A stretch of 36,819 bases of DNA from Deltaproteobacteria bacterium CG03_land_8_20_14_0_80_45_14 (GCA_002780715.1 PEUO01000117.1:1-36819); one strand, 5' to 3'. Shown: positions 2 through 35,601, numbered from the stretch's first letter. The notes: generated by a model not told the origin, from the letters alone. Numbers and translations are program-made.

Positions 2-1768
2 GTAGGGAAGGAAGCATTACTGACGATTTTGAGCGATGAGGAAGATCGCTACTGCCACGGAATCATCAATAAGTTTAAGCAGACAGGGAGCAAAGGGGAG
101 TTCAATATTTATCAGGCAACCGTGGTGCCCTCTCTTTGGCTTCTCTCCTATGAGCAAGATTGCCGTATTTTTCAGAATAAGACCGTTGAGGACATGATCA
201 AGCAGATTTTTCAGGATGCTGGAATAACCAGTGACCGTTTTGACTTCCGGCTTCAGAATAAACCTCCCCAAAGAGAATATTGTGTTCAATACCGGGAGAC
301 CGATCTGAATTTTATCTCTCGCCTTCTTGAGGAAGAGGGCATCTTTTACTTCTTTGAACACTCCAAGAGTAAGCATGTCCTGGTTTTCGGCGATAGCACA
401 GTGGCCTATCAGTCGTTTATAAAAGGAAAGGCGGATGTGACATTTAACCCTGCGGGGATGGTGGCGAAAGAGGAATCGGTTTATGGTTTTTCCTTTTCTC
501 AAAGAGTCTTTTCTGGGAAGATCACTCAGAGGGATTTTAATTTTGAGAAACCCTCCTTGGATTTAAAAGCCGAGGAGCAGGATAAATCCTATCAGAAGTT
601 AGAGGTCTACGATTACCCGGGGAGATATTTAGATCAGGGGAGGGGAAAGAAGCTGTCAAAGATTCGCCTTGAAGAGTCAATAACCTTTAAGGAAAAGGCT
701 GAAGGGCAGAGTGTTTGTCCCCGCTTTACACCTGGCTTCAAGTTCAAGTTGACCGACCATGATCGAAAAAGTTTCAATCAAGAATACCTTCTGGGAGAAG
801 TTCGTCACACAGGAGCCCAACCCCAAGTGTTTAAGGAATGGGCGGATTCCAGCATCGGCTTAAGTTATTCGAACTACTTTGTTGGCATTCCTTCTTCCGT
901 AACCTACAGGCCCTGGAGAAAGACACCCAAACCCTTTGTGGAAGGTCTCCAGACAGCTATGGTCACCGGGCCAAAAGGTGAAGAGATTTATACGGACGAA
1001 TATGGTCGAGTAAAGGTGCAGTTTCACTGGGATCGGGAGGGGAAGAAGGATGAAAAAACTACCTGCTGGATAAGGGTGGCTTACCCTTATGCAGGCGAGA
1101 AACATGGAGCCCAGTTTACCCCCCTCGTTGGAGATGAGGTCTTGGTCGATTTTCTGGAAGGCGATCCGGATAAGCCGGTTATTACAGGTTCTCTCTTTAA
1201 GGGAGAGCATAAAGCATTAATCCCTGAAAAGGAAATGATTAAGAATGAAATCCTTACCCCTTATCAACACCGGCTCCTTTTCAATGATAAGGGCGGCAGT
1301 ATCACTCTTAACACCGGTGGGGGAGAGCGGCTCTACATGGGGGACGGCAAAGAAGATAAGACCGACCATGGAAACAATATTAAGATATCGACTGCGGATG
1401 GTCATTATATTCACTTAGCTCAAGGCAATACTTTTAAAGGAATTGAGTTTATGACAAAGAACTACCACTACGCCAGAATGATGGGCATGACCGGCCAATC
1501 AGAGATAACCCTTATTACGGAGAAGGGGCATTGGATCCTTCTCGATGATACAGGTGATCGAATTAGAATTGCGGATCGGAGTAATACACTAACAGTCGAG
1601 ATGAACTCAAGTAGCGGCCAGATCAAGGTTGAAAATAATGCTACGGGTGGCGGTTGGATTTTGCTTGAATGTCCCAATGGAAAGATCAGCCTTAAAGCAA
1701 ACCAAATTGAACTGATCGGGACCACCATCACTGATATCAAAGGGGGTATGGTAAAGATCAATTGTTAA
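2..1768 (+). CDS. vgrG: Type VI secretion tip protein VgrG/TssI, 5'-truncated by window edge
   Basis: The frame stays open upstream of the listed TTG at 29 to the window edge (..GKEALLTILSDEEDRYCHGIINKFKQTG). VgrG core motifs: YCVQYRETDLNFISRLLEEEGIFYFFEH, EEIYTDEYGRVKVQFHWDREGKKDEKTTCWIRVAYPYAG, GDEVLVDFLEGDPDKPVITGSLF. Confidence 0.95.
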   Translation, partial: VGKEALLTILSDEEDRYCHGIINKFKQTGSKGEFNIYQATVVPSLWLLSYEQDCRIFQNKTVEDMIKQIFQDAGITSDRFDFRLQNKPPQREYCVQYRETDLNFISRLLEEEGIFYFFEHSKSKHVLVFGDSTVAYQSFIKGKADVTFNPAGMVAKEESVYGFSFSQRVFSGKITQRDFNFEKPSLDLKAEEQDKSYQKLEVYDYPGRYLDQGRGKKLSKIRLEESITFKEKAEGQSVCPRFTPGFKFKLTDHDRKSFNQEYLLGEVRHTGAQPQVFKEWADSSIGLSYSNYFVGIPSSVTYRPWRKTPKPFVEGLQTAMVTGPKGEEIYTDEYGRVKVQFHWDREGKKDEKTTCWIRVAYPYAGEKHGAQFTPLVGDEVLVDFLEGDPDKPVITGSLFKGEHKALIPEKEMIKNEILTPYQHRLLFNDKGGSITLNTGGGERLYMGDGKEDKTDHGNNIKISTADGHYIHLAQGNTFKGIEFMTKNYHYARMMGMTGQSEITLITEKGHWILLDDTGDRIRIADRSNTLTVEMNSSSGQIKVENNATGGGWILLECPNGKISLKANQIELIGTTITDIKGGMVKINC

Positions 1769-1838
1769 TCAAACAACAATTTGGCAGGCGCTGATTGAAA
1801 TCGAAGTGAAATGAAAAATATACAGAGGGGTTGAAATC

Positions 1839-2729
1839 ATGTTTCCAGCTGCTCGTATCGGTGATCCAATTACACATGATCAAACGGCACCAAGTGGTGT
1901 GGTAGGGCCGCCCCAACCAGGGGCGATCCCAAATGTCATGATCGAGGGACTCCCCGCCGCTACGGTAGGAGATTATGTGACTTGTACTGGTGCAACCTCC
2001 GCTGGTCCGGCTCATCCGCCTCAGGCAGGTCCTCCGCCGTCAGTCCCTCCTTCTGTTCCTATCATCACGGGCCTTCCAAGGGTAATGATCGGAGGCAAGC
2101 CGGCAGCCCGTTGGACCCCGAGTGGGGACACCAGTGCCTGCGGTGTTTTCTTGGGTGATCCAAAACTGGCGGCTATACGCACCGTCTTTATTGGAGGGGG
2201 TTTGATTGTGGGAAATCTCTTCGCTACATTAGCCGTTTTCCCGGGCCAACAAAATGCACAGAACTGTGGGGTTGAATCTTCTCGTCAGCTTATGCTTGCC
2301 TCTGGGGGCAATATTTCGGAGAATGATCTTTTGAACTGGGCGTTGAATCAGGGCCTTGCTGAAAATGACCCCGACCCTGCAGAGCGGGGAGGCACGGGCC
2401 CAGAGGATAGGGAAAAGATTCTTGACCAGAACGGGGTCCCTTCTCATCGGGAGCCCCAAAACATGAATAACATCACTCAGGCCGTGAGAGAGGGCAGAGG
2501 AGTTATCACAAGTCATGATGCTGGCACCCTTTGGAATCAACCCGGTGTCAATGGAGGCCATGCTGTCACCGTCACCGGGCTTGAGTATGATTCCAATGGA
2601 AATCTCCAGAATGTTATTATTAACGATACGGGTACTGGTCAGGGGGCTCAATCGATACCTGCCGACCGATTTCAAAATTCTTTGAGACCGGGTCGTGATA
2701 TTAATGTAACGGATTCTCCTATCTGGTAG
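1839..2729 (+). CDS. PAAR-domain protein with C-terminal papain/C39-like cysteine peptidase domain (putative T6SS effector)
   Basis: N-term MFPAARIGDPITHDQ...IPNVMIEGLPAATVGD...VMIGGKPAAR (PAAR pattern). C-term has QNCGVESSRQLML (Cys), GVNGGHAVTVTGLEYD (His) and VIINDTGTG (Asn/Asp), the order of a papain-like triad. Directly follows vgrG. Confidence 0.85.
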   Translation: MFPAARIGDPITHDQTAPSGVVGPPQPGAIPNVMIEGLPAATVGDYVTCTGATSAGPAHPPQAGPPPSVPPSVPIITGLPRVMIGGKPAARWTPSGDTSACGVFLGDPKLAAIRTVFIGGGLIVGNLFATLAVFPGQQNAQNCGVESSRQLMLASGGNISENDLLNWALNQGLAENDPDPAERGGTGPEDREKILDQNGVPSHREPQNMNNITQAVREGRGVITSHDAGTLWNQPGVNGGHAVTVTGLEYDSNGNLQNVIINDTGTGQGAQSIPADRFQNSLRPGRDINVTDSPIW

Positions 2730-21186: not shown

Positions 21187-24100
21187 ATGAGTATCTTCGA
21201 CCTTCGCCAATCAGTGATCGATGAATACAGTAAGTACGTTCAGAGCTTCCTTTCTATTGCTGATGACCGAATAAGAGCATTTATTGAGGAATCGCTCTTA
21301 AAAAACCAAGCCCTTTGGCCAGATGCGCTACTGCAATTAAATCCATCTTACGAGATGGCTTCGACAGTAAAAGACCTTGTTATAGAGGGAAAACTCCATC
21401 CTCTATGCGCCGACATTTTCTGTGCGGATGGTGGGGATCCTATACGATTATATCTTCATCAACAAGAAGCGATTGAAAAGGCTTTAAACCACAAACATTT
21501 CATAGTAACGAGCGGCACCGGGTCTGGAAAAACCCTTACCTATTTCGTTCCCATTTTTGACGCTATTCTTCGCACTAATCCTGAAGAGGCCAAGACTCGG
21601 GCAATCATTGTTTACCCGATGAATGCCCTGGTTAATTCACAGGAAGAGGCTTTAAGAAGACTTCTTACTCAATATAAAAATCTTACTGGGAAAGAGTGCC
21701 CAATTCGATTCTCGAAATATACCGGTCAAGAAAGGGAGCAGGAAAAACACAATATCCAGAAGAATCCTCCTCATATCCTGTTAACCAATTATGTCATGTT
21801 AGAACTCATGCTGATTCGTCCAGAAGAACATAATTTTGTGGATAGAAGCACCGCAGACCTGCAATTCTTAGTCATTGATGAATTACATACCTACCGCGGT
21901 AGGCAGGGGGCAGATGTTGGCCTCTTGATTCGCCGATTGCGCGAGCGGTCAGGAAACCAAAATCTCCAATGTATTGGAACAAGCGCAACCATGGTGGCAG
22001 GGAAAACCACTTCCAAAAAGGAAAGGCAAGAAGGAGTAGCCCAATTCGCAAGTAAAATTTTTGGAGTCGCCATCGAACCTGACAGCATTATCGAAGAATC
22101 CTTGAAAAGGATCACATCGAATCCAGACATTCCATCCGCAGAGATCTTGCATAGCACCCTGGATTCACCCGTTCCCCAGACGGTCGAGGAAATGATTAAT
22201 AACCCCCTCACAGCCTGGATTGAGCTTACCTTTGGCATCGAGGAGGAGCCGGACGGGCAATTACGTCGCAAACCACCTGTGAGTCTATTAGAGGGAGCTC
22301 AAAAACTTTCGGAGTTAACAGGGATTGAGGTTCAACATTGTCAGGAAAGGTTGAGGGAAAGTTTTCTCTTGGGAAGCCAGTTGAAAATGGCCGATGGAAG
22401 CTCCCCCTTTGCCTTTAAGCTCCATCAGTTTGTTGGTCAAGGCCGAACGGTTTATGCGACCCTTCAGCCACGGTCAAAAAGGTTTCTCACCCTCGAAGGC
22501 CAATACTTCGCGCCTGAACAAAAAGAAGAGCATATCCTCTATCCTTTACTATTCTGCCGGGTATGTGGACAAGATTATTATGTGGTAGCCAGGGATGTTG
22601 AGAGTGGACGTTTCCTGCCTTTAGATCCGCAAAGTGAGCAGTCGTCTGCCGCCGGATTTACCAGGGGATATTTCATGTTGTCACCCGAAGGGAATGGCTC
22701 TGATTGGAGTGAAGAACATCTTCCCCCTGAATGGTACGGTCAGAATGGAAAGGTCAAGAGGGATTATCGTCAACATGTTCCTGTGTCTACTTGGGTATTC
22801 CCGGATGGAACCTTGAAAACCGAACCAGACGCAGAGGCTGCAAAAGGATGGTATCAACCAACTCCGTTTATGCTCTGCCTCAACTGCGGTGAATTTTACA
22901 CAAGGCGTGATAGGCTCGATTTTCGCAAGATTGCAGGACTTTCGAGCGAGGGGCGAAGCACTTCAACTACCGTATTATCGATTTCTGCATTGCAGCATGT
23001 TGAAGAGGGTGGAATTAAAGAGGGGGCAAGAAAGATTCTCAGTTTTACGGACAACCGGCAGGATGCCTCCCTTCAGGCTGGACATTTCAACGATTTCGTT
23101 CAGATTTCTATTTTAAGGGCAGCCATTCTAATTGCCCTTAAAATGCATCGTCAGCTCAGATTTGATAATGCTGCTCAGAATGTCGTCGAATCTATAGGTT
23201 TGTCTCTTTCAGGTGTAGCTAAAAATAAAGATCTCAGAGAGGATACTACACAAGGTCGGGAAGTCTGGAACACATTCCGCGATTTGGTTGAATATCGACT
23301 CTTTGAAGATCTTCGACGAGGGTGGAGAGTTGTTCAACCTAATCTCGAACAGTGCGGTTTATTATGCATCGAATATAGAGGGTTAGAAGAGCTTTGTAAG
23401 GATGACAAGAACTGGGATAGCCTACCCCCTTTTAAGATCCTGTCACCCAAAACGCGAAAAGAGATCCTTACACCAGTTCTCGACCATTTCCGAAAGAAAC
23501 TTGCAATTTCCACTGGCTGCCTTAAAGAGCAGTACCAGCAACAGCTCCGGAAGCGTGCCCTGGAGCAAATTAATGAAAGATGGTCTTTTGATGAAAAAGA
23601 AATGCTCCATACCGCATTGAGGTTCTTACCCCCCGGACAACCCACTCGGCCCATCGAAGGCTTGAGTTTGGGAGAGAACAGTTTGATCGGTCGTTATCTC
23701 CGAAGAACTCTTGCCATTTCAGAATCGTATCCAAGCTTCATCCAAAAGCTGACAGATCTTCTCTCCTCCCACGGGTTAATGAAGAAAGATTCTGAAAGGG
23801 GTGTTTCATTCATCCAATTGGATGGAACATGCCTCTTATGGAACAAATGCATGACAGGATTGCCTCCATCCGATCCGATCTACACTCGACGGGTGCAAAG
23901 TGAAGCCTATTTGGAAACAGAGCGAAAAGCAAACGAATACTTTCGCAATTTCTACAAAGGAGGGGCGGCAACTTTACGCGACATAGAAGGTCGGGAGCAT
24001 ACTGCCCAGATTACTTATGAGAGCAGGCAGGAGAGGGAACAAAGATTTCGAGATGGAGATCTGGCTTGCCTCTTCTGCTCCCCCACTATGGAACTTGGAA

Positions 24101-26274
24101 TTGATATTGCTGATCTTCAACTGGTCCATTTAAGAAACGTACCGCCCACCCCTGCAAACTATGCACAGCGGAGTGGGCGGGCAGGCCGAAGGGGCGATCC
24201 AGCTCTTATTCTCACCTATTGTGCAGCCGGAAGCGGGCATGACCAGTACTTCTTCCGTCATCGCCAGGAGATGATATCGGGTGTGGTTCGTCCTCCGCGG
24301 ATCGATTTAGGTAGCGAAGATCTGATCAAAGCCCATATTCATGCTCTTTGGCTCTCCAAGGTCCGATTTTCCCTTGGCGACTCCATAACCGATATCCTGG
24401 AAGTGAGCTTAGATACTTACCCTTTAAAAGAAAACACTCTTGCACAGATTCATCTTTCAGAAGCAAGGCTGAGAGAATGTTACGAAGAGGCAGAGCACAT
24501 CCTTAATACCTGCGGGGCGGATTTATATGTAACAGGTTGGTACTCGAAGGAATGGTTGGAAAGTGTGCTTAAGAGGGCTCCAGATGAATTCAATGAAGCC
24601 TTCGAGCGATGGCGTGAACTCTACCGGTCTGCCGATCAACAATGGCAGGAGGCAAATGAAGTTCTGAGGCACCCTGTTAGGGACAGAAGCCAGCGCGTCA
24701 AGGCTGAGATTCAAAGAAGAGAAGCAGAACGGCAGAAGAATCTCCTTTGCAATCTCGGAACAACCCGTGAAGAATCTGATTTCTATCCTTATCGGTATCT
24801 TGCGAGTGAAGGATTTTTACCAGGTTATAACTTTCCCCGTTTGCCTATCCGTGCTTTCATTCCAAGGAAAGATGGAGAATTTATCAGCCGGCCTCGTTTC
24901 CTCGGTATTACGGAATTCGGCCCCAAGAATATTGTTTACCATGAGGGTGCGAAGTATGAGGCTGGAAGGCTCATCGTACCCCCTGGTGGTCTTTCGTCAA
25001 GACGGGTTCAAGGGAAATTATGCAAAGTCTGCGGATATTTTCAGAAGGAAGCGACTGTGGACCTCTGCGAGAATTGCAACACTCGTCTCGATGCAACGAC
25101 CAGTGAAGTCCTGCCCCTTCTCGAATTATCCAATGTCAAGACATGGCGGAGAGAACGTATCACCTCTGATGAAGAGGAGCGCCGCCGTTTCGGTTATGAG
25201 GTAACCACCCATTTTCGTTTTGCTCCTTCTCCGGGAGGTCAAAAGCGAATCCTTGAAGCAATGGTTCAAGATGAAAACAATGCACCACTGATTCGAATGG
25301 TCTTTGCGCCAACTGCTGAACTTTATCGTGTCAATCACGGATGGCGAAACAGAAGAGAAAAAGGGTTTCTTATTGATATTGAAGAGGGTAACTGGCTGAA
25401 AGGGTCTGACATGGATGAAGAGGATTCTGGCCCAGAGTCCTCAAAGCATCCTGAAATCGTCCAGCTCTTTGTCCGTGATTCTCATAATCTTTTTCTTCTC
25501 TATCCACTCGAACCTACACTCGCACAAAATGAGGATCTTCAGGCAACTCTCCAGTATTGCCTGCAGAGGGGGATAGAGCAAGTTTTTCAGATCGAAGAGT
25601 CTGAGCTTGCTTCAGAGCGAATTGGCTCAGGTTCAAATAGAGCAATCCTTTTCTGGGAAGCCTCCGAGGGAGGGGTGGGCGTCTTAAGAAGGCTGATCGA
25701 GGAACGGGATGCCCTCTCTAAGATTGCTATGGCTGCCCTGGAACGTTGCCATTTCAATCCGGAAACCCTGGACGATCTAAAATCGGATTGTTTCCGGGCC
25801 TGCTATGAATGTTTGCTCTCCTATGGCAATCAGCGGGACTATCCCAGGTTAAACAGACATATTGTTAGAGATCTCCTTGTCAAGCTTTCGAAAGGATCTG
25901 TTCTTTCCCGGAAAGCTGGCCGAGATTACGAGGATCATTATCGTTGGCTTCGTTCGCTAACAGATAGCCGGTCTGAACTTGAACGAAAATTCATCGATCA
26001 TCTTTACCAAACCAAACGCAGATTGCCCGATGAAGGACAAAAATTCTTAAAAGATTATTACAGCAATCCCGATTTCTTCTACGAACCCAATGTTTGCATC
26101 TTTTGTGATGGCTCTGTCCATGATGAGCCAACACAAAAGGAAAAGGATCGTATAACAAGGCAAGAATTAAAAGAGCTTGGTTATCGAGTCATTGTCATTC
26201 GCTACGATCAGGATCTTGCAGAGCAGATTCGCCGATACCCTGACGTTTTTGGTGAAGAAAAGGCCACCAAATGA
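21187..26274 (+). CDS. YprA/DruE-like SF2 helicase with zinc-finger/DUF1998-like region and C-terminal Vsr-like nuclease domain
   Basis: [16 protein letters not shown] (Walker A), [64 protein letters not shown]. Cys pairs [32 protein letters not shown]...[22 protein letters not shown] (DUF1998 pattern). C-term [22 protein letters not shown]...[17 protein letters not shown]. Confidence 0.9.
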   Translation: [1695 protein letters not shown]

Positions 26275-29108
26275 ATGGTTTATCCATTGGCTCCATCGTT
26301 CGTTGCCGTAACCGTGAATGGATCATCCTCCCATCCCCAGATGAAAACCTGCTATTACTCCGTCCACTGACAGGAAGTGATAGAGAAGTTTGCGGGATTT
26401 ACAGACCCCTTGCCAACCTGGGCTTCGACAGGATCGAATCAGCCACTTTTCCATTGCCTAAATCAGAGGATTCGAGTGACTCTGTAAGCACAGAGCTTCT
26501 CTGGAATGCTGCCCGTCTATCTCTAAGAGATGGCGCAGGGCCCTTCCGTTCCTTGGGTCGTGTTTCTGTTCGCCCCCGTCCATACCAATTTGTTCCTCTC
26601 TTGATGGCTTTACGGCTTCAGCCAATACGCCTTCTCGTTGCCGATGATGTGGGTATAGGGAAAACCATTGAGGCATTGCTGATTGTAAGTGAACTTCTTG
26701 ACCGGGGCGAAATCCAGCGTCTCTGTGTTCTCTGTCCTCCTTATCTTTGTGACCAATGGAAAAAAGAACTTTCCGAAAAGTTCCACATTGATGCAGTTGT
26801 CATTCGCTCAGGAACTGTAAGTAATTTGGAACGCAATCTTCCTTCGGGCGATCACAGTATTTTCGGCTACTATCCTTACATCGTGGTCAGCATTGATTAT
26901 GCTAAATCAGAAAGCCACCGTCCAAATTTTCTGCTTTACTGTCCCGAATTTGTCATCGTGGATGAAGCACATGGCGCTGCCGAGCCATCGGGAAAAGCTC
27001 GTTTCCAGCAACAACGCCATGAGCTCCTCCATAAGGTCGCCAAAGATCCAAACCGTCACCTGATTCTACTCACGGCTACCCCCCACAGCGGGGTTGAAGC
27101 ATCCTTTCTTTCCCTTCTTGGTCTTATACAGCCTGATTTTTCACATTTGAATCTTCAGCGCTTGTCTGAAGGGGAGAGAGATTCCTTAGCGCGCTATTTT
27201 GTTCAGCGTAGAAGAGCAGACATTCTTAATTGGCTTGGTGAAGAAACTCCTTTCCCTGACCGTGATCCTTCCGAAGAGACCTATGATTTATCTCCTCCAT
27301 ACCGTGAACTATTTGAGCGTGTCTACAAATTCAGCCGGGAATTAGTTCAGACCGGCGAAACACTTTCAGGTTGGAAAAAACGCATACGTTACTGGACAGC
27401 CCTCGCATTGCTTCGGTGTGTCATGTCGAGTCCGGCGGCTGCTTTCTCTGCCCTTCGGAAAAGAGAAAGAGGGATTCTGATCGACGAGGAAATCACCGAC
27501 GAGTCATACTCTCCATATGTCTACGATCCCACCGATCAAGAGACCCTGGACGTTCAACCAGGCCATATCCTGGATGAAGGTGAGAGCGATTTGAGCGAAG
27601 GGGACCGCAAACGTCTCCGTGAATTCGGGCGACTGGCTGAACAAATCCGCAGCGGAGAAAATGATCTCAAGGTTAAAAAATGCTGTGAAATCATCCGTAA
27701 CCTCTTACGCGAAGGCTATCGGCCAATTGTCTGGTGCCGTTACATCGCTACAAGCGATTATGTAGCCGATGAGTTACAGCGCCGCCTTGGAAAGGAATTC
27801 CCGGATCTGCGAGTCATCTCTGTTACAGGTAAAGACTCTGAAGATGAGCGCCGTTCCCGCGTGGAAGAATTATCCCTTCATCCTCGCCATGTTCTCGTGG
27901 CTACCGATTGCCTGAGCGAAGGCATCAACCTTCAAGAGTCATTCACCGCCGCTCTTCATTACGACCTTCCCTGGAACCCCAACCGCCTTGAGCAGCGCGA
28001 AGGAAGGGTTGACCGTTTTGGTCAATTTTCAAAAAAAGTTAAAACGGTCCTGTTCTATGGTCGTGATAATCCAGTGGATGGCGCTGTCCTGGATGTCCTA
28101 TTGAGAAAAGCTAAAGAGATTCACCATGACCTGGGCATAACGGTTCCTGTACCCACGGATAGCGAAACGATCATGGAGGCTGTATTGAAGACCCTCTTCT
28201 TTCGGGCTCCCCAGGTGCAGCAACTTAACCTTTTTACTGAACCAATTGTCCAGGATGTCCACCGCCGATGGGAGGAAGTTGCCGCCCGCGAAAAAGAAAG
28301 CCGCACACGCTTTGCCCAACGGGCAATCAAACCCGATGAAGTAGATCGTGAACTTAGAGAGAGCGACTCTGTGTTAGGCGATCCCGGAGCAGTTAAAGAT
28401 TTTGTCCTGAACACCTGTCAGCGCCTCGGAGTTACGGTACAGTCAAAATCAAAAGGGGTATTTACGATTCTCACACTGGATCGATTTCCTGATATGGTTC
28501 GAACTGTTCTTCCTGCTAAGAATGAGTGGAGAGTTACCTTTACGACCCCCGCGCCTGAGAATGTGACTTATTTGGGGCGCAATCATCCATTTGTTACGAC
28601 ACTGGCCCAATACCTGCTTGAGGAGGCTCTCACCTTTGGAGAGAAAGCCCATGCAGCCCGATGTGGCGCTATTCGCACCCAGAGGGTAGATCGGCGAACG
28701 GTTATGTTCCTCTTGAGACTCCGCTCCACTCTCGAAGAACCAGACAAGAGGCCATTACTAGCAGAAGAAGTTCTTGTTTGTGGATTGCGAGGATCCCCCC
28801 CTGACAAGTTAGAACGGGTTCCCGATCACGAGGTCCTCGAACTGCTTCAGAGGGCCAAACCCGATGCCAATATCTCCATCCAAGAGCGGCAAGAAGTCCT
28901 GAGGGAGGTTCTGGGATGGTGGTCTGATCTCCAATCTTTTCTCCAATCCATCATCCAGGAGAGGGCTAAAAACCTCTATGAAAGTCATCGTCGTATTCGT
29001 TCAGCGGCTCATATTGCCCGTCGTGGACTATCAGTTCAACCGCACTTTCCTCCTGATCTCCTTGGTACCCTCGTGCTATTGCCTGTGCCGAAGGGAGTAA
29101 TCAGATGA
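26271..29108 (+). CDS. SNF2-family (DrmD-like) helicase
   Basis: LLVADDVGIGKTIEALLIVSELLDRGEIQRLCVLCPPYLCDQWKKEL; FVIVDEAHGAA; LILLTATPHSG; HVLVATDCLSEGINLQESFTAALHYDLPWNPNRLEQREGRVDRFGQ. Confidence 0.92.
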   Translation: MNGLSIGSIVRCRNREWIILPSPDENLLLLRPLTGSDREVCGIYRPLANLGFDRIESATFPLPKSEDSSDSVSTELLWNAARLSLRDGAGPFRSLGRVSVRPRPYQFVPLLMALRLQPIRLLVADDVGIGKTIEALLIVSELLDRGEIQRLCVLCPPYLCDQWKKELSEKFHIDAVVIRSGTVSNLERNLPSGDHSIFGYYPYIVVSIDYAKSESHRPNFLLYCPEFVIVDEAHGAAEPSGKARFQQQRHELLHKVAKDPNRHLILLTATPHSGVEASFLSLLGLIQPDFSHLNLQRLSEGERDSLARYFVQRRRADILNWLGEETPFPDRDPSEETYDLSPPYRELFERVYKFSRELVQTGETLSGWKKRIRYWTALALLRCVMSSPAAAFSALRKRERGILIDEEITDESYSPYVYDPTDQETLDVQPGHILDEGESDLSEGDRKRLREFGRLAEQIRSGENDLKVKKCCEIIRNLLREGYRPIVWCRYIATSDYVADELQRRLGKEFPDLRVISVTGKDSEDERRSRVEELSLHPRHVLVATDCLSEGINLQESFTAALHYDLPWNPNRLEQREGRVDRFGQFSKKVKTVLFYGRDNPVDGAVLDVLLRKAKEIHHDLGITVPVPTDSETIMEAVLKTLFFRAPQVQQLNLFTEPIVQDVHRRWEEVAAREKESRTRFAQRAIKPDEVDRELRESDSVLGDPGAVKDFVLNTCQRLGVTVQSKSKGVFTILTLDRFPDMVRTVLPAKNEWRVTFTTPAPENVTYLGRNHPFVTTLAQYLLEEALTFGEKAHAARCGAIRTQRVDRRTVMFLLRLRSTLEEPDKRPLLAEEVLVCGLRGSPPDKLERVPDHEVLELLQRAKPDANISIQERQEVLREVLGWWSDLQSFLQSIIQERAKNLYESHRRIRSAAHIARRGLSVQPHFPPDLLGTLVLLPVPKGVIR

Positions 29109-32100
29109 CCACACGGTTTCCATGCTTGAATATTGAGGGTGGTCTATTTGCTGGGGATTTAATTGACCAGATCGGCGATGGAACTGTACAGGGACAAAAA
29201 CCTGCTGACTTTAAGCTTTCTCCTCGAACTTATCTCACTGACGAAATCGCTGCTGCTTGGACGGATGCCCGTTCTTTCTGGACCGCTTTTCAGCATCGTC
29301 TGGAACGTCTGCCCCAGGAGGACACTGCAACGAGTATTACTCGCGACCAGTGGATGATTCCTCTTCTGAGCCTCCTTGGCTACGAGCTTACCTATGCTTC
29401 CCGGGCCGCTGAAGTAGATGGACAGACATACGCCATCTCCCATAGAGCCGGTCAGGATGAAAATTCGCCTCCGGTCCACATTGTCGGTTGCCGCCAGTCC
29501 CTTGACCGTCGGCCTGAATCGGGGAGACCCCGCCTAGCTCCCCACTCCCTTCTTCAGGAATATATCAACCGCACCGAGCATCTCTGGGGGATTGCCACCA
29601 ATGGTTATACACTGCGGCTCCTCAGAGATTCACAACTCATACGCCGCCAGGCTTATATTGAATTCGATCTCAAACAGACGATGGAGAGCGAAAAGTTTGC
29701 TGACTTCGCCCTTCTTTACCGTCTGGTTCATCGTACCCGTCTACCTTGCGGCGTTGAGGACGCATCTGAATGTTTATTGGAACGATACCACTCAATAACC
29801 ATCGAACAGGGTGGCCGTGTCAGGGATCATTTAAGGGACGGTGTCGAAGAGGCGCTGAAAATCCTTGCAAACGGACTTCTTCATCATCCAAAAAACCAAC
29901 ATCTACGTGAGAGGTCCAAAAACGGAGAACTGAATCCTTATTCCTCCTATCAACAACTTCTACGCCTCATTTACCGGTTCCTCTTTCTGATGGTAGCAGA
30001 GGAGCGGAATCTCATCACCGAAAATCAGGCTTACCGCGATCACTACAGTATCAGCCGACTGCGTTACTTCTCGGAACTCAGGCCTGCCTATTCAGATCAC
30101 GAAGACCTATGGATTGGTTTGCAAACCACTTTCCGTCTCTTTCAAGATGAGGAATTAGGTAAGATGCTTGGAGTGCCACCTCTTAACGGTGATCTCTTCA
30201 ATACTGCTCAAACTCCCGATCTTCAAGGCCTATCGATTACGAATCGTGAATTCCTGACTGCCATATGGGATCTCTCAATGTACCGTGAAAACGAACGAAC
30301 ACCATGGCGCCGGATCAACTATGCTGCCCTCGATGTGGAGGAACTTGGAAGCGTCTATGAAAGTCTTCTCGATTTCCAGCCTGTTTTCACAGAGCGAGAT
30401 GGGAAACCTACCTTCGAACTCGCCTATGGGATGGAACGCAAATCGACGGGTTCCTACTACACTCCACCCGAACTGGTAAACGAACTTATCAAAAGTGCGC
30501 TTGTGCCTGTCCTTGAAGAACGTCTAAAAGAGGTAAAAACTCCTCAGGAGAAAGAAAAATCAATTCTAAATCTTAAGGTGTGTGATCCCGCTTCAGGGAG
30601 CGGGCATTTTCTCCTGGCAGCGGCAAGAAGGCTTGGAAGAGAACTTGCGAAGATTCGAACCGGTGACGATGAACCTGCCCCCGAACAAATGCGCCTTGCT
30701 ATAAGGGATGCCATTACTCACTGCATCTATGCTGTGGACAAAAATCCTTTGGCAGTTGACCTGTGCAAAGTTGCCCTGTGGATGGAGGGTCATGCCAAAG
30801 GGAAACCCCTCACCTTTCTGGACCATCGAATCCGCTGCGGGGATTCCTTGATTGGAGTGCTGGACCTTAAAGTCTTGGAACAGGGGATACCCGATGAAGC
30901 TTTGGATCCAGTGACTGGTGATGATAAACAAGTGGCTCGGTCATTAAAAAAGCAAAACCGTTCCGAGCGTGAAGGACAGCGTTCACTACCTTTTGAAGCG
31001 AAAAAAGAAATCACGAGCCTGCTTGACGCTTATCAACCTCTACGTGAACTACCCGATGACACCCCTGAGCAAATCCGAAGGAAAGTCGAAGCCTATCAAA
31101 AAATCCAGAGCCATGGTTCAAAATGGTGGCATGACAACACTGCTTGTCACCTTTGGACAGCAGCCTTTTTTGCTGAACTCACCCAAGAAAACAACAAAAA
31201 TAATCGAATTCCTACTACCGAAACCTTGCGCCGTTATCTTGAGACACATGCCATTGATGGCAGACAGATTGGCAATGCTTGGGCTCTTGCCCAGAAACAT
31301 CATTTATTCCATTGGCCACTTGAGTTTCCGGATGTATTTGCTTCTGCTACTCCCTCTCCCTTGATGGGACAGAAGTCTCCTCCTTCCACTTCCCGCTCGA
31401 CAGGGGATTCCCTTTTTCTTCCCTCCCCCTTGATGGGGGAGGGTGCGGGTGGGGGTGTAGGAGGCTTCGACGTTGTCCTCGGAAATCCCCCATGGGAGCG
31501 GATCAAATTGCAGGAGCAGGAATTTTTTGCATCCAGAGACCCTGAAATTGCACGCGTACCAAACAAAGCAGCTCGGGAGCGCTTGATCCGGCAATTGCCA
31601 GACCAGAATCCAAGTCTCTGGCACGAATTCAAAGATGCGAAGCATTCTGCTGAGGCACAGAGCAAGTTTATGCGACATTCTGGCCGCTACCCTCTAACTG
31701 CCCGAGGTGACATCAACACCTATGCCGTCTTTGCCGAATTAGCCCGAAACCTAATTAATCCTAAGGGGCGAGTGGGAATCATTGTACCCACTGGAATAGC
31801 CACGGATGATACATGCAAACATTTCTTCGGAGACCTGGTTGAAAAGAATAACCTGTTGAGCCTATTCGACTTTGAAAATAGGGATGCGCTTTTTCCCTCA
31901 GTACATCGGTCCTATAAATTCTGTCTTTTCACCCTGAAGGGGAAAACAGACAAAGTCATGCAACTTTCAGAGTTTGTCTTCTTCGCCACTCGTGCTGAAC
32001 AAATAAAAGAAGGAATTCGTCGGTTCACCCTTTCTGCTGAAGATTTCAGGCTTATTAATCCTAACACTCGTACGTGCCCGGTTTTTCGCACGAAGGCAGA

Positions 32101-33181
32101 TGCAGAACTGACAAAAAAGATATACAACAGAGTTCCTGTTTTGGTTAATGAAGTAGAGAACAATAATGCATGGCATATTGACTTCAGACGAGTTTTCGAT
32201 ATGAATAAAGTGGAGATTTTAAAAATCTGTAGTAGGGAACCTGCAAATAATGCCATCCCCATGTATGAAGCCAAGATGATATGGCAGTTCGATCACCGCT
32301 TTGGCACTTACGAAGGCCTCAGTAACCGTTCTAGCACACATTTGCCGACACCTAGACCTGATCAGTACTCAAGTTCATTTTTCGTTATGAAGCCATGGTA
32401 TTGGATTCCTACTGATGAAATGGCAAGCCGTCTCCCCAGTTGGGAGCGGAAGTGGCTGCTAGGCTTCCGCGATATCACGCACGCGGCAAATGAGCGTACG
32501 GCTATTTTCACCATCCTGCCCTTCGTAGGCACAGATTTTACAATTCGTCTTGCATTTCCCAAAGAAACTGCACGATGGATCTCCTGTATTATAGCCAATG
32601 CAAATTCCCTTACCTTTGATTACGTTTGTCGTCAATCGGTGGCTGGAACACATTTGGCTGATTACATAACTAAGCAACTCCCTACATTTCCACCAACCTT
32701 ATACACACCTATTGATTTAGAATTTATTGTTCCACGCGTATTGGAATTGGTCTATACAGCCTGGGATGTCAAACCATTTTCTGATGATGTATGGCGCGAA
32801 GCTGATGATGTGTTCAAGTCCGAGATTAAGAAACAATGGGAAACGAATCGTGTGGCTACCGGTGGGCACATATGGAATCCACCCGAATGGGCTGAAATCG
32901 CCGAAGATGGTATTCCGCTTCCACCTTTTAAATGGGATGAAACCCGCCGCGCCACCCTCCGGGCTCAACTGGACGCATATTATGCCAAACTTTATGGCCT
33001 TACCCGTAATGAACTTCGCTACATTCTCGATCCGAAGGAAGTATATGGCCCTGACTTCCCCGGCGAAACCTTCCGCGTCCTAAAAGAGAAGGAGGAGAAG
33101 CAGTACGGCGATTACCGCACCCGCCGTTTGGTATTACAGGCCTGGGATAGATTGGACGCCAATGGGAAAAGTCAAGGATAA
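29105..33181 (+). CDS. Type IIG/Eco57I-like N6-adenine DNA methyltransferase (DrmMI-like)
   Basis: VCDPASGSGHFLLAAARRLGREL (motif I), FDVVLGNPPWERI (motif IV), RKSTGSYYTPPELVNEL, IYAVDKNPLAVDLCKVALWM, GRVGIIVPTGIATDD. Confidence 0.92.
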   Translation: MTTRFPCLNIEGGLFAGDLIDQIGDGTVQGQKPADFKLSPRTYLTDEIAAAWTDARSFWTAFQHRLERLPQEDTATSITRDQWMIPLLSLLGYELTYASRAAEVDGQTYAISHRAGQDENSPPVHIVGCRQSLDRRPESGRPRLAPHSLLQEYINRTEHLWGIATNGYTLRLLRDSQLIRRQAYIEFDLKQTMESEKFADFALLYRLVHRTRLPCGVEDASECLLERYHSITIEQGGRVRDHLRDGVEEALKILANGLLHHPKNQHLRERSKNGELNPYSSYQQLLRLIYRFLFLMVAEERNLITENQAYRDHYSISRLRYFSELRPAYSDHEDLWIGLQTTFRLFQDEELGKMLGVPPLNGDLFNTAQTPDLQGLSITNREFLTAIWDLSMYRENERTPWRRINYAALDVEELGSVYESLLDFQPVFTERDGKPTFELAYGMERKSTGSYYTPPELVNELIKSALVPVLEERLKEVKTPQEKEKSILNLKVCDPASGSGHFLLAAARRLGRELAKIRTGDDEPAPEQMRLAIRDAITHCIYAVDKNPLAVDLCKVALWMEGHAKGKPLTFLDHRIRCGDSLIGVLDLKVLEQGIPDEALDPVTGDDKQVARSLKKQNRSEREGQRSLPFEAKKEITSLLDAYQPLRELPDDTPEQIRRKVEAYQKIQSHGSKWWHDNTACHLWTAAFFAELTQENNKNNRIPTTETLRRYLETHAIDGRQIGNAWALAQKHHLFHWPLEFPDVFASATPSPLMGQKSPPSTSRSTGDSLFLPSPLMGEGAGGGVGGFDVVLGNPPWERIKLQEQEFFASRDPEIARVPNKAARERLIRQLPDQNPSLWHEFKDAKHSAEAQSKFMRHSGRYPLTARGDINTYAVFAELARNLINPKGRVGIIVPTGIATDDTCKHFFGDLVEKNNLLSLFDFENRDALFPSVHRSYKFCLFTLKGKTDKVMQLSEFVFFATRAEQIKEGIRRFTLSAEDFRLINPNTRTCPVFRTKADAELTKKIYNRVPVLVNEVENNNAWHIDFRRVFDMNKVEILKICSREPANNAIPMYEAKMIWQFDHRFGTYEGLSNRSSTHLPTPRPDQYSSSFFVMKPWYWIPTDEMASRLPSWERKWLLGFRDITHAANERTAIFTILPFVGTDFTIRLAFPKETARWISCIIANANSLTFDYVCRQSVAGTHLADYITKQLPTFPPTLYTPIDLEFIVPRVLELVYTAWDVKPFSDDVWREADDVFKSEIKKQWETNRVATGGHIWNPPEWAEIAEDGIPLPPFKWDETRRATLRAQLDAYYAKLYGLTRNELRYILDPKEVYGPDFPGETFRVLKEKEEKQYGDYRTRRLVLQAWDRLDANGKSQG
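31349..31461. repeat. In-frame repeat insertion inside methylase gene
   Basis: CTCTCCCTTGATGGG...CCTCCCCCTTGATGGGGGAGGGTGCGGGTGGGGGT, encoding TPSPLMGQKSPPSTSRSTGDSLFLPSPLMGEGAGGGVG between FPDVFA and GFDVVLGNPPW. Confidence 0.75.
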
Positions 33182-33389: not shown

Positions 33390-34154
33390 TTGACAGATCA
33401 CCTATTAGGAAATTCATTTTGGATCAATAACTCCGAGACTGTTATGCCTGCAAATGTGAAAACTTACAAGTTACTGTGTGAATACAGATTTAAGCCAATT
33501 CTTTTGTTTTACGATGCAAAGAACCAAATAGGTCATGCATTGTTTAAAGATTACAAGCACTGGAGTCATGATGGTCTCAGAATAAATCTCAATAATTTTG
33601 AAAACCGAAGTGTTCTTGCTATCGACCATAACCGGTTAGCTTTAGAATTTGACATACCAGATTCTTATGATGAATTCCGCACTGAGTTTGAACGTGCTTT
33701 TAAAGAGTACACTAAAAAAATCAAAATTGAGAATTATCTCAGATGCGGCCTCCGGACCCAAAGTATGATTCCTGTGGAGATGCATTTTAGTGAGTTGACA
33801 AAGATTACTGAGGGAAAGTTTTTATCTCATGAGAAAGACCTCTTACAGATTGTTGGTAACCAAGTAGACGATTATCAGTACAACGTAGTAAGTGAAAGAG
33901 AAGGTTTTAAGATTCATGTGATATGTGGTCCTGTAGTAAAAGAAGAAATAGGACGTTGGTATCAGCCAGCTAAATTAATTCTTGATCCAGGTCAGGAACC
34001 CAAACCAATCAAATATCCTGATGTGGCGTTCTTCATCGATTGTGACTGCTATGTTGAGAATCCGGAATCAGATATGTGGGAAAATTTCTTGGATAGAGCG
34101 ACGCGCCTTATAACTTCCATGAATAATGCAATAAACGAATATATATGGAGGTAA
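33390..34154 (+). CDS. Hypothetical protein, weak resemblance to TIGR04255 family
   Basis: 254-aa ORF (alternative start ATG 33444: MPANVKTYKLLCEYRF). Central YLRCGLRTQSMIP recalls the RxGLRY-type motif; low-certainty assignment. Confidence 0.6.
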   Translation: MTDHLLGNSFWINNSETVMPANVKTYKLLCEYRFKPILLFYDAKNQIGHALFKDYKHWSHDGLRINLNNFENRSVLAIDHNRLALEFDIPDSYDEFRTEFERAFKEYTKKIKIENYLRCGLRTQSMIPVEMHFSELTKITEGKFLSHEKDLLQIVGNQVDDYQYNVVSEREGFKIHVICGPVVKEEIGRWYQPAKLILDPGQEPKPIKYPDVAFFIDCDCYVENPESDMWENFLDRATRLITSMNNAINEYIWR

Positions 34155-34157
34155 ACA

Positions 34158-34769
34158 ATGGTTCCTCAAATTCAATTAACCGCAACTGCTGGAGTTAGTC
34201 CTCTCCAAGATTTTGCAGATTCGATGACTGTCTTTAAACCTTATCTCGCGTCTCTTAAAGAACCACCGCAAGAGAAAGAAGATAGATATTCTGAGTTTCT
34301 TTATCATGGGTTGACACCCCAAATAGTAGAGAAGGGTAACGGTGCATCGCAGGTTATTGATATAACAGCTTCTAGATACTCTGAGAAGCCTTCTAGACAA
34401 TATGCAGAGTTGGTGTTTCAACGCAATATGAGGGAAATTCCACCTCTACTTGAGCAACTAAAAGTGAATTTGGAGAATCCGGAGGGTGCAAAGTTTATGC
34501 AGTGGTTCAGAGAGAGACTACATCGAGTTTGGGAAGTTGCAGATGTTTTGCCAAAAGAGAAGGTTCTTTTTTTAAGTGCCATGGAGGAAACAGTTAGAGC
34601 CAAAAGATGGCGTGATCTTGCAACTGGGCAAGTTCAGATTTTGGAACAAGTAATTAAACAAACCGAAAGTGGTACATTGAATTTAGCTGGCGCGCTGAGA
34701 ACACTTCATCGTAACTTCATAGACATCTATCCATCTGCGTCAATAGACGAAAGCGATGAAAACGAATAA
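34158..34769 (+). CDS. Hypothetical protein
   Basis: 203-aa ORF, RBS ggaggtaaacaATG, 3 nt after the previous gene. Confidence 0.7.
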   Translation: MVPQIQLTATAGVSPLQDFADSMTVFKPYLASLKEPPQEKEDRYSEFLYHGLTPQIVEKGNGASQVIDITASRYSEKPSRQYAELVFQRNMREIPPLLEQLKVNLENPEGAKFMQWFRERLHRVWEVADVLPKEKVLFLSAMEETVRAKRWRDLATGQVQILEQVIKQTESGTLNLAGALRTLHRNFIDIYPSASIDESDENE

Positions 34770-35601
34770 CCACCTGAATGGAGATTGCTTCCTTGAAACC
34801 TCTGTCCCAAGACAAATGTCGTTTGGACATAGCCTTCTTAAAGAAGAAATTCGGAAATATCTTACGAGGTGTTCTCAAAAATGGAGTTCTTTTTACGTTT
34901 TGATGGAATATAAGCGATCCGTGGTCAAGACACTGATTGATCTTTATTTCGTTGCAAAAGAAGAAAAAACTCCAAGTGATGCTCTACATTATTTCCAAGA
35001 AGGATTTAGGACAAGACAAAATAAAATTGTCCTCAGTGCAATTGCGACCTTGTTGGAAGATTCGGAGATCGCTAATGACAAGCTGCGATTCCTTATCAAG
35101 CTGGAAACACTGATTTTCGGATCTTTCCAATATTTTCATGATCTAATAGATAAATATATTGAAAACAAAATAGCCTGTCCCTTGGGAAAGATATCGATAC
35201 AAGAAGGAATCGCAAGAGAAGAAGGCTACAGAAGATTTTTAGAGGAGATAGATTGCATCAGAATGTGCTCGTTAGATAAATTCTTAAAGAGTAAGAAGAG
35301 TCAGCTAAAACGATTAATAGAGGAGGGGGAAAAAGACCCTCATGATAAGAACAAAGGATTTCAAGAAGCTTTATTATTGATCAAATCTGCCATTGGAACT
35401 CTTGACACTCTCAAGGCAAAGAGCAATTGCATGAAGATTGGCGATGTCATTATTGCTTTAGAAGTCCCGAAACGTCTGAAAATATTGACGTTTGACAGAG
35501 GGTTTGAGAGTAGCTGCCAAATTCTAGGCAAAAGATTAATTGTACTTCCCTCCCTTGCAACATTAAGAAAATCAAGAGCACCAGCACCACAACCAAGCTG
35601 A
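34756..35601 (+). CDS. PIN-like domain protein (putative RNase)
   Basis: N-term CFLETSVPRQM, FYVLMEYKRSVVKTLIDLY; C-term MKIGDVIIALEVPKRLKILTFDRGFESSCQILGKRLIVLP resembles PIN C-terminal GDaliaa..lltfDrdF. Overlaps the previous gene by 14 nt. Confidence 0.6.
   Translation: MKTNNHLNGDCFLETSVPRQMSFGHSLLKEEIRKYLTRCSQKWSSFYVLMEYKRSVVKTLIDLYFVAKEEKTPSDALHYFQEGFRTRQNKIVLSAIATLLEDSEIANDKLRFLIKLETLIFGSFQYFHDLIDKYIENKIACPLGKISIQEGIAREEGYRRFLEEIDCIRMCSLDKFLKSKKSQLKRLIEEGEKDPHDKNKGFQEALLLIKSAIGTLDTLKAKSNCMKIGDVIIALEVPKRLKILTFDRGFESSCQILGKRLIVLPSLATLRKSRAPAPQPS

Follow-up and report, generated by a model that had tools for sequence, protein, structure and literature searches.

A three-gene YprA helicase, SNF2 helicase, and DNA methyltransferase operon assigned to ARMADA Type I in Deltaproteobacteria bacterium CG03_land_8_20_14_0_80_45_14

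The YprA family of helicases was split in a 2025 preprint by Bell et al. (PMC12458937) into DISARM, Dpd, and Druantia, and the new systems ARMADA, BRIGADE, and TALON. ARMADA Type I consists of a YprA gene, a BrxHII-like helicase gene, and a PglX-like methylase gene, generally in that order, and the order is reversed in cyanobacteria (PMC12458937). The Type I YprA protein has a BrxA-like helical domain directly after RecA1, a zinc-binding beta-barrel that carries two or more CxxC motifs and is inserted where RecA2 begins, and a C-terminal Vsr-type nuclease that is predicted to be active (PMC12458937). ARMADA Type II has the reversed order and a fourth gene, ArmD, encoding a UvrD/GajB-like helicase with a RelE-like domain (PMC12458937). 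The operon described here lies at positions 21,187 to 33,181 of a 36,819-nucleotide stretch (the window) of the genome of Deltaproteobacteria bacterium CG03_land_8_20_14_0_80_45_14 (GCA_002780715.1 PEUO01000117.1:1-36819). It is composed of three open reading frames (ORFs):

21187..26274, + strand: gene 1, YprA/DruE-family superfamily 2 helicase-nuclease of 1695 amino acids (aa), ArmC-like (ORF call, Pfam, PADLOC, and tree)
26271..29108, + strand: gene 2, BrxHII/RapA-like SNF2 helicase of 945 aa, ArmA-like (ORF call, Pfam, PADLOC, and NCBIfam)
29105..33181, + strand: gene 3, PglX-like N6-adenine DNA methyltransferase of 1358 aa, ArmB-like (ORF call, Pfam, and PADLOC)

An ATGA overlap was read at both junctions, and the ORF lengths, coordinates, and junctions are exactly those of the original prediction, which had been made from the sequence. 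Its naming of the products as a YprA/DruE-like helicase, an SNF2 helicase, and an N6-adenine methylase is confirmed by Pfam domain matches. Protein 1 matches DEAD (9e-29), Helicase_C (1.7e-14), and MZB (2.3e-8), protein 2 matches Helicase_C (1.9e-15) and SNF2-rel_dom (4.8e-11), and protein 3 matches Eco57I (5.3e-18) and N6_Mtase (1.6e-7).

The gene content and order are those of ARMADA Type I, and the locus can be called with high confidence a new example of this known system. The operon is genuine, intact, and well conserved, a putative defence operon of a described kind and not a new system. The original prediction had read the architecture as non-canonical, which is not supported, and its claim of novelty falls because a system of identical gene order had already been catalogued. 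Its other suggestion, that the operon could belong to a recently described type of YprA-helicase defence, is borne out (PMC12458937). The best explanation overall, with a probability of about 0.8, is an ARMADA Type I anti-phage operon running from YprA through a BrxHII-like SNF2 helicase to a PglX-like methyltransferase. Shared with Type I are the three genes in the same order, the reversed order in cyanobacterial relatives, and in the YprA protein the insert after RecA1, the CxxC modules, a helical hairpin, one canopy zinc insert, the MZB domain, and the Vsr-type nuclease. No system-level difference from Type I was found; an in-frame repeat insert in the methyltransferase is a local feature. 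ARMADA Type II of Escherichia coli ATCC 8739 (NC_010468.1, L139) has homologous ArmA, ArmB, and ArmC proteins and, according to the preprint, a Vsr-type domain on its YprA protein (PMC12458937). Its order is SNF2, methyltransferase, YprA, with ArmD in addition, whereas here the YprA gene comes first and ArmD is absent. No ArmD/UvrD-like gene follows the trio, where the three downstream ORFs have no Pfam match.

The arrangement recurs widely. A strong YprA relative is present in 26 of 395 genomes of the same phylum. Among 20 regions around these matches, 11 have the SNF2 gene after the YprA gene as here, and in eight of the 11 the methyltransferase gene is next. Two of the other three end at a contig edge, and the third (L057) has no methyltransferase match in its stretch. 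A survey of named genomes kept 80 loci from many phyla, with YprA identities of 36-82% over nearly the full length. The full trio is present in 53 of these: 40 carry the exact order seen here, the recurrence for which the original prediction had proposed a survey, 11 have the order SNF2, methyltransferase, YprA, and two have other arrangements. Many of the loci lacking the full trio are short contigs. In cyanobacteria the trio occurs in four of the loci (L076, L088, L094, and L098), always in the reversed order, as the preprint reports. YprA relatives were also found on plasmids, those of Deinococcus radiodurans, Thermus, Chroococcidiopsis, and Planktothrix among them.

Clustering of the neighbouring ORFs returned three families present in 99, 75, and 68 loci, and a recurrent fourth gene, sought in the same clustering, was not found in more than six. 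Chance association is excluded because the three families co-recur in dozens of loci, and the trio is a self-contained unit because no further neighbour family exceeds six loci. Since no fourth gene recurs with the compact trio, Type I is a handy minimal system for the question of which subunits sense and which cut.

A tree was constructed from 47 YprA-family proteins using 714 core columns, with MrfA as the root. The ArmC of ARMADA II was taken from NC_010468.1 by position. A clade of 31 rows, supported at 100/100, contains the window protein and joins the E. coli ATCC 8739 ArmC at 87/98, with one deep branch (L056) between them. DruE of Druantia III forms a separate clade (100/100). The original prediction had proposed a phylogeny against DrmA, DruE, DpdJ, and MrfA; the separation from DruE and MrfA was obtained, but DrmA has a very long branch and an unsure placement, and DpdJ was left out, as no match to a DpdJ reference was found in two genome samples that had no positive control. 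The YprA relative at L056 (8872-18884, - strand) is 1783 aa long, lies beside a 1590-aa methyltransferase-like protein, and joins the Type I clade at 86/89. It could be a separate lineage.

The tree bears on the possibility of a new Druantia subtype. The best PADLOC models for protein 1 are DruE1 to DruE4, with 332 bits on DruE1, and its closest solved relatives are structures 9tu7 and 9wae, which from their size and name we take to be DruE proteins. The DruE matches are not discriminating, because DruE models give an equal score (348 bits) to the E. coli ArmC of ARMADA II, and the tree places the window protein with ArmC and not with DruE. The locus has no DruH or other Druantia partner; the genes beside YprA encode an SNF2 helicase and a methyltransferase, the partners found in ARMADA. 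Druantia Type III is similar in having a YprA-family helicase with a nuclease tail, but DruE has PLD (phospholipase D) domains and the partner DruH, and no SNF2 protein or methyltransferase is present (PMC13192584). A new subtype is very improbable.

Also very improbable is a minimal DISARM variant with a single chain in place of DrmA and DrmB; the original prediction had raised this possibility, which is rejected here. The locus resembles class 1 DISARM in its YprA-family helicase and in an SNF2 helicase and methyltransferase homologous to DrmD (292 bits) and DrmMI (261 bits, PADLOC). The C-terminal model of the YprA protein also matches DrmB (7s9v_B, 1.4e-5). The YprA core, however, scores 49 bits on the best DrmA model, far below its DruE score, and groups with ArmC, while a true DrmA in the same genome scores 750 bits on DrmA models. 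That DrmA adjoins a DrmB (235 bits) near the end of contig C69 (L165 3741-9095). DISARM splits the helicase and DUF1998 into DrmA and DrmB, whereas a single chain holds both here and no DrmB or DrmC gene is present at the locus. DISARM typically, though not universally, has the PLD nuclease DrmC. The statement of the original prediction that no PLD protein is visible holds for the 23 window ORFs scanned with Pfam, the small ORFs having been scanned in part. A separate DrmC nuclease is lacking because a nuclease of Vsr/EDxHD type, not PLD, is fused to the YprA protein. On contig C69, a NERD/UvrD-like gene lies upstream of the DrmA/DrmB pair.

The SNF2 protein has the motifs DDVGIGKT at position 125 and DEAH at position 231. 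Over its full length it scores 654 bits on the PADLOC model PDLC02853, labelled DpdE, versus 292 on the best DrmD model. Its NCBIfam score for DpdE is 191, with the cut-off at 500, and DrmD is also below its cut-off. The PADLOC and HMM check proposed in the original prediction supported homology to DruE, DrmD, and DrmMI, with the qualifications that the DpdE-labelled model is the best one for the SNF2 protein and that DrmA is weak. We infer that ARMADA Type I proteins were the basis of PDLC02853. The E. coli ArmB scores 922 bits on PDLC03614 (REase_MTase_IIG), and this model, like PDLC02853, may have been built on ARMADA proteins. A common defence-gene library of 2023 labels the members of the trio DruE, DpdE, and DrmMI, and automatic annotation may split one ARMADA system into Druantia, Dpd, and DISARM pieces. 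With the assignment to ARMADA, a candidate DISARM-Druantia hybrid is struck from the unknowns and a well-preserved ARMADA Type I operon is added. Dpd itself was considered and rejected: the DpdJ NCBIfam score is 72 bits against a cut-off of 800, and no search was made for the 7-deazaguanine genes.

An MrfA-type housekeeping operon for DNA repair would account for the distant homology of protein 1 to MrfA (6znp, 7.6e-40). In this genome, however, a separate 783-aa protein (L167) is the MrfA, and it clusters with the other MrfA proteins, apart from the window protein. Universal vertical conservation would also be expected of such an operon, whereas this one is patchy, being present in none of three sampled congeners and in two of nine other family members. 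This explanation has a negligible probability.

The YprA protein can be divided into the following features:

21457..21993, + strand: RecA1, aa 91-269, with Walker A GTGSGK at 110-115 and DELH at 231-234 (Pfam and motif reading)
21994..22551, + strand: helical insert after RecA1, aa 270-455, in the position of the ARMADA BrxA-like domain (mostly helices in the model)
22555..22887, + strand: beta-rich region with CxxC pairs at aa 457/460 and 564/567, a predicted zinc-binding module (conservation and model strands)
23980..24195, + strand: C-terminal part of RecA2, aa 932-1003, with motifs CSPTMELG and QRSGRAGR (Pfam and motif reading)
24547..24747, + strand: long helical hairpin, aa 1121-1187, between RecA2 and the canopy module (three long helices in the model, predicted local distance difference test (pLDDT) values mostly above 80)
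25021..25077, + strand: canopy zinc-binding insert with CxxC pairs at aa 1279/1282 and 1294/1297 (cysteines kept in 87-88 of 90 homologues)
25549..25815, + strand: MZB/DUF1998 module, aa 1455-1543 (Pfam and fold match)
25969..26256, + strand: C-terminal Vsr/EDxHD-type nuclease domain of the PD-(D/E)xK superfamily, aa 1595-1690 (conservation, model, fold, and profiles)

Residues K115, D231, and E232 are kept in all 90 homologues. The cysteines at 457/460 and 564/567 are kept in 87 of 90, and the beta-rich region that holds them, as modelled, agrees with the zinc-binding module described for Type I. The insert was modelled with AlphaFold over aa 258-640 (mean pLDDT 80.8, predicted template modelling score 0.55). 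A second model covers aa 1030-1695 with a mean pLDDT of 86.3 and contains the long helical hairpin, the canopy module, and a small alpha/beta domain. Besides the DrmB match given above, its fold search returned MrfA 6znp (1.9e-8). The DUF1998-like tail of the original prediction is present as the MZB module, but the protein runs about 150 residues further, into the Vsr-type nuclease domain that had been missed.

The predicted C-terminal nuclease is probably active, because the EDxHD-type residues E1599, D1629, D1641, H1645, and D1654 are kept in 82-86 of the 90 homologues. Nuclease models are matched in YprA homologues, DUF559 in 26 of 44 and MTES_1575 in 21 of 44. The domain also matches the fold of the catalytic domain of I-Bth0305I (3r3p) with a probability of 0.95, a TM score by target of 0.63, and an E-value of 0.48; given this E-value, the modelled match is supportive but not strong alone. 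I-Bth0305I is a homing endonuclease that we take to be a Vsr-like EDxHD enzyme.

Three features can be placed on the methyltransferase:

30596..30610, + strand: S-adenosylmethionine-binding motif GSGHF, aa 498-502 (glycines 498 and 500 invariant in 49 homologues)
31346..31465, + strand: in-frame insert before NPPW, aa ~748-787 (SPLMGQ...SPLMGEGAGGG), with a dispersed repeat inside (loop lengths and genome copies)
31481..31495, + strand: catalytic motif GNPPW, aa 793-797 (N invariant in 49 homologues)

The invariance of the tested GSGHF and NPPW residues in the 49 Type I homologues suggests that methyltransferase catalysis is kept. No ExK nuclease motif was found by eye in the aligned segment of the N-terminal region. 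The loop before NPPW is 63 aa long here versus 26 aa in many homologues, and part of the insert has 18 further partial copies elsewhere in the genome. It looks like a dispersed palindromic repeat tolerated within the protein. Inserts of the SPLMGEG type occur in the same methyltransferase loop at L068 and L054, and the L094 methyltransferase has a repeat-like insert in a different loop.

ARMADA II protects E. coli from many phages with neither abortive infection nor growth arrest, and requires all four genes, the Walker motifs of both helicases, and the NPPW motif of the methyltransferase (PMC12458937). DruE III is a helicase-nuclease that unwinds 3'-tailed and forked DNA, with a preference for 3'-tailed (PMC13192584). 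By analogy with these ARMADA II and DruE III data, the methyltransferase and SNF2 protein would recognise foreign DNA, probably through the absence of a host N6-adenine mark, and the SNF2 protein would translocate on or remodel it. The YprA protein would then load on exposed 3' single strands and unwind them, its fused Vsr-type nuclease domain would cut the DNA, and the cell would be protected without suicide. Methylation as the self mark is plausible, and the full mechanism as written has roughly an even chance of being correct.

In ARMADA Type I the methyltransferase might instead read the sequence for a complex that stalls or cuts phage DNA, and not mark self DNA; this is possible but rather unlikely. 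A role in recognition is favoured because deletion of the ARMADA II methyltransferase, like that of any gene of the system, leaves viable cells that still plate phage but have lost defence (PMC12458937). Restriction would not depend on a purely protective methylase, whose loss should be toxic. The ARMADA II NPPW mutant is dead for defence and the GxG mutant is partly impaired (PMC12458937). In BREX, PglX/BrxX is required for both defence and methylation (PMC11842806). A BREX survey (PMC12839542) mentions neither YprA nor DISARM. Against this alternative is the invariance of the tested GSGHF and NPPW residues among the Type I homologues. A further proposal is that stand-alone Type I defends fully without ArmD, with the Vsr-type nuclease as sole effector and a mechanism unlike that of four-gene Type II. 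It is tentative, with slightly less than an even chance of being correct; ArmD is essential in the tested Type II (PMC12458937).

Several points weigh against the reading as an ARMADA Type I anti-phage operon. The assignment to Type I is based on gene order, the absence of ArmD, and the domain layout, and the tree was built without the Type I reference WP_108720193.1. Identity to the ARMADA II proteins is low, at 23-35% over matched stretches. The insert after RecA1 showed no BrxA in Pfam and PDB sequence searches of the region, and a Foldseek search of its model against the PDB for BrxA likeness gave a best E-value of 0.6 with a probability of 0.10. The phage tests in PMC12458937 concern Type II and not Type I. 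The steps that we infer are the working of Type I in the absence of ArmD, the marking of self by methylation, and cutting by the Vsr domain; the methyltransferase may act solely in recognition.

Promoter and terminator scans of the locus gave signals at or below chance and are uninformative. Downstream of the operon, at 33390-35601, are three ORFs, one of the TIGR04255 family and two with no family match; they are not recurrent in homologous loci. At the other end of the window (2-2729), a Phage_GPD/base_V spike protein is followed by a PAAR and C39-peptidase-like protein, as in contractile injection systems. Elsewhere in the genome, contig C196 (L166 1730-5200) encodes a 1156-aa SNF2 helicase with HmaA as its best PADLOC match (568 bits), a candidate defence gene.

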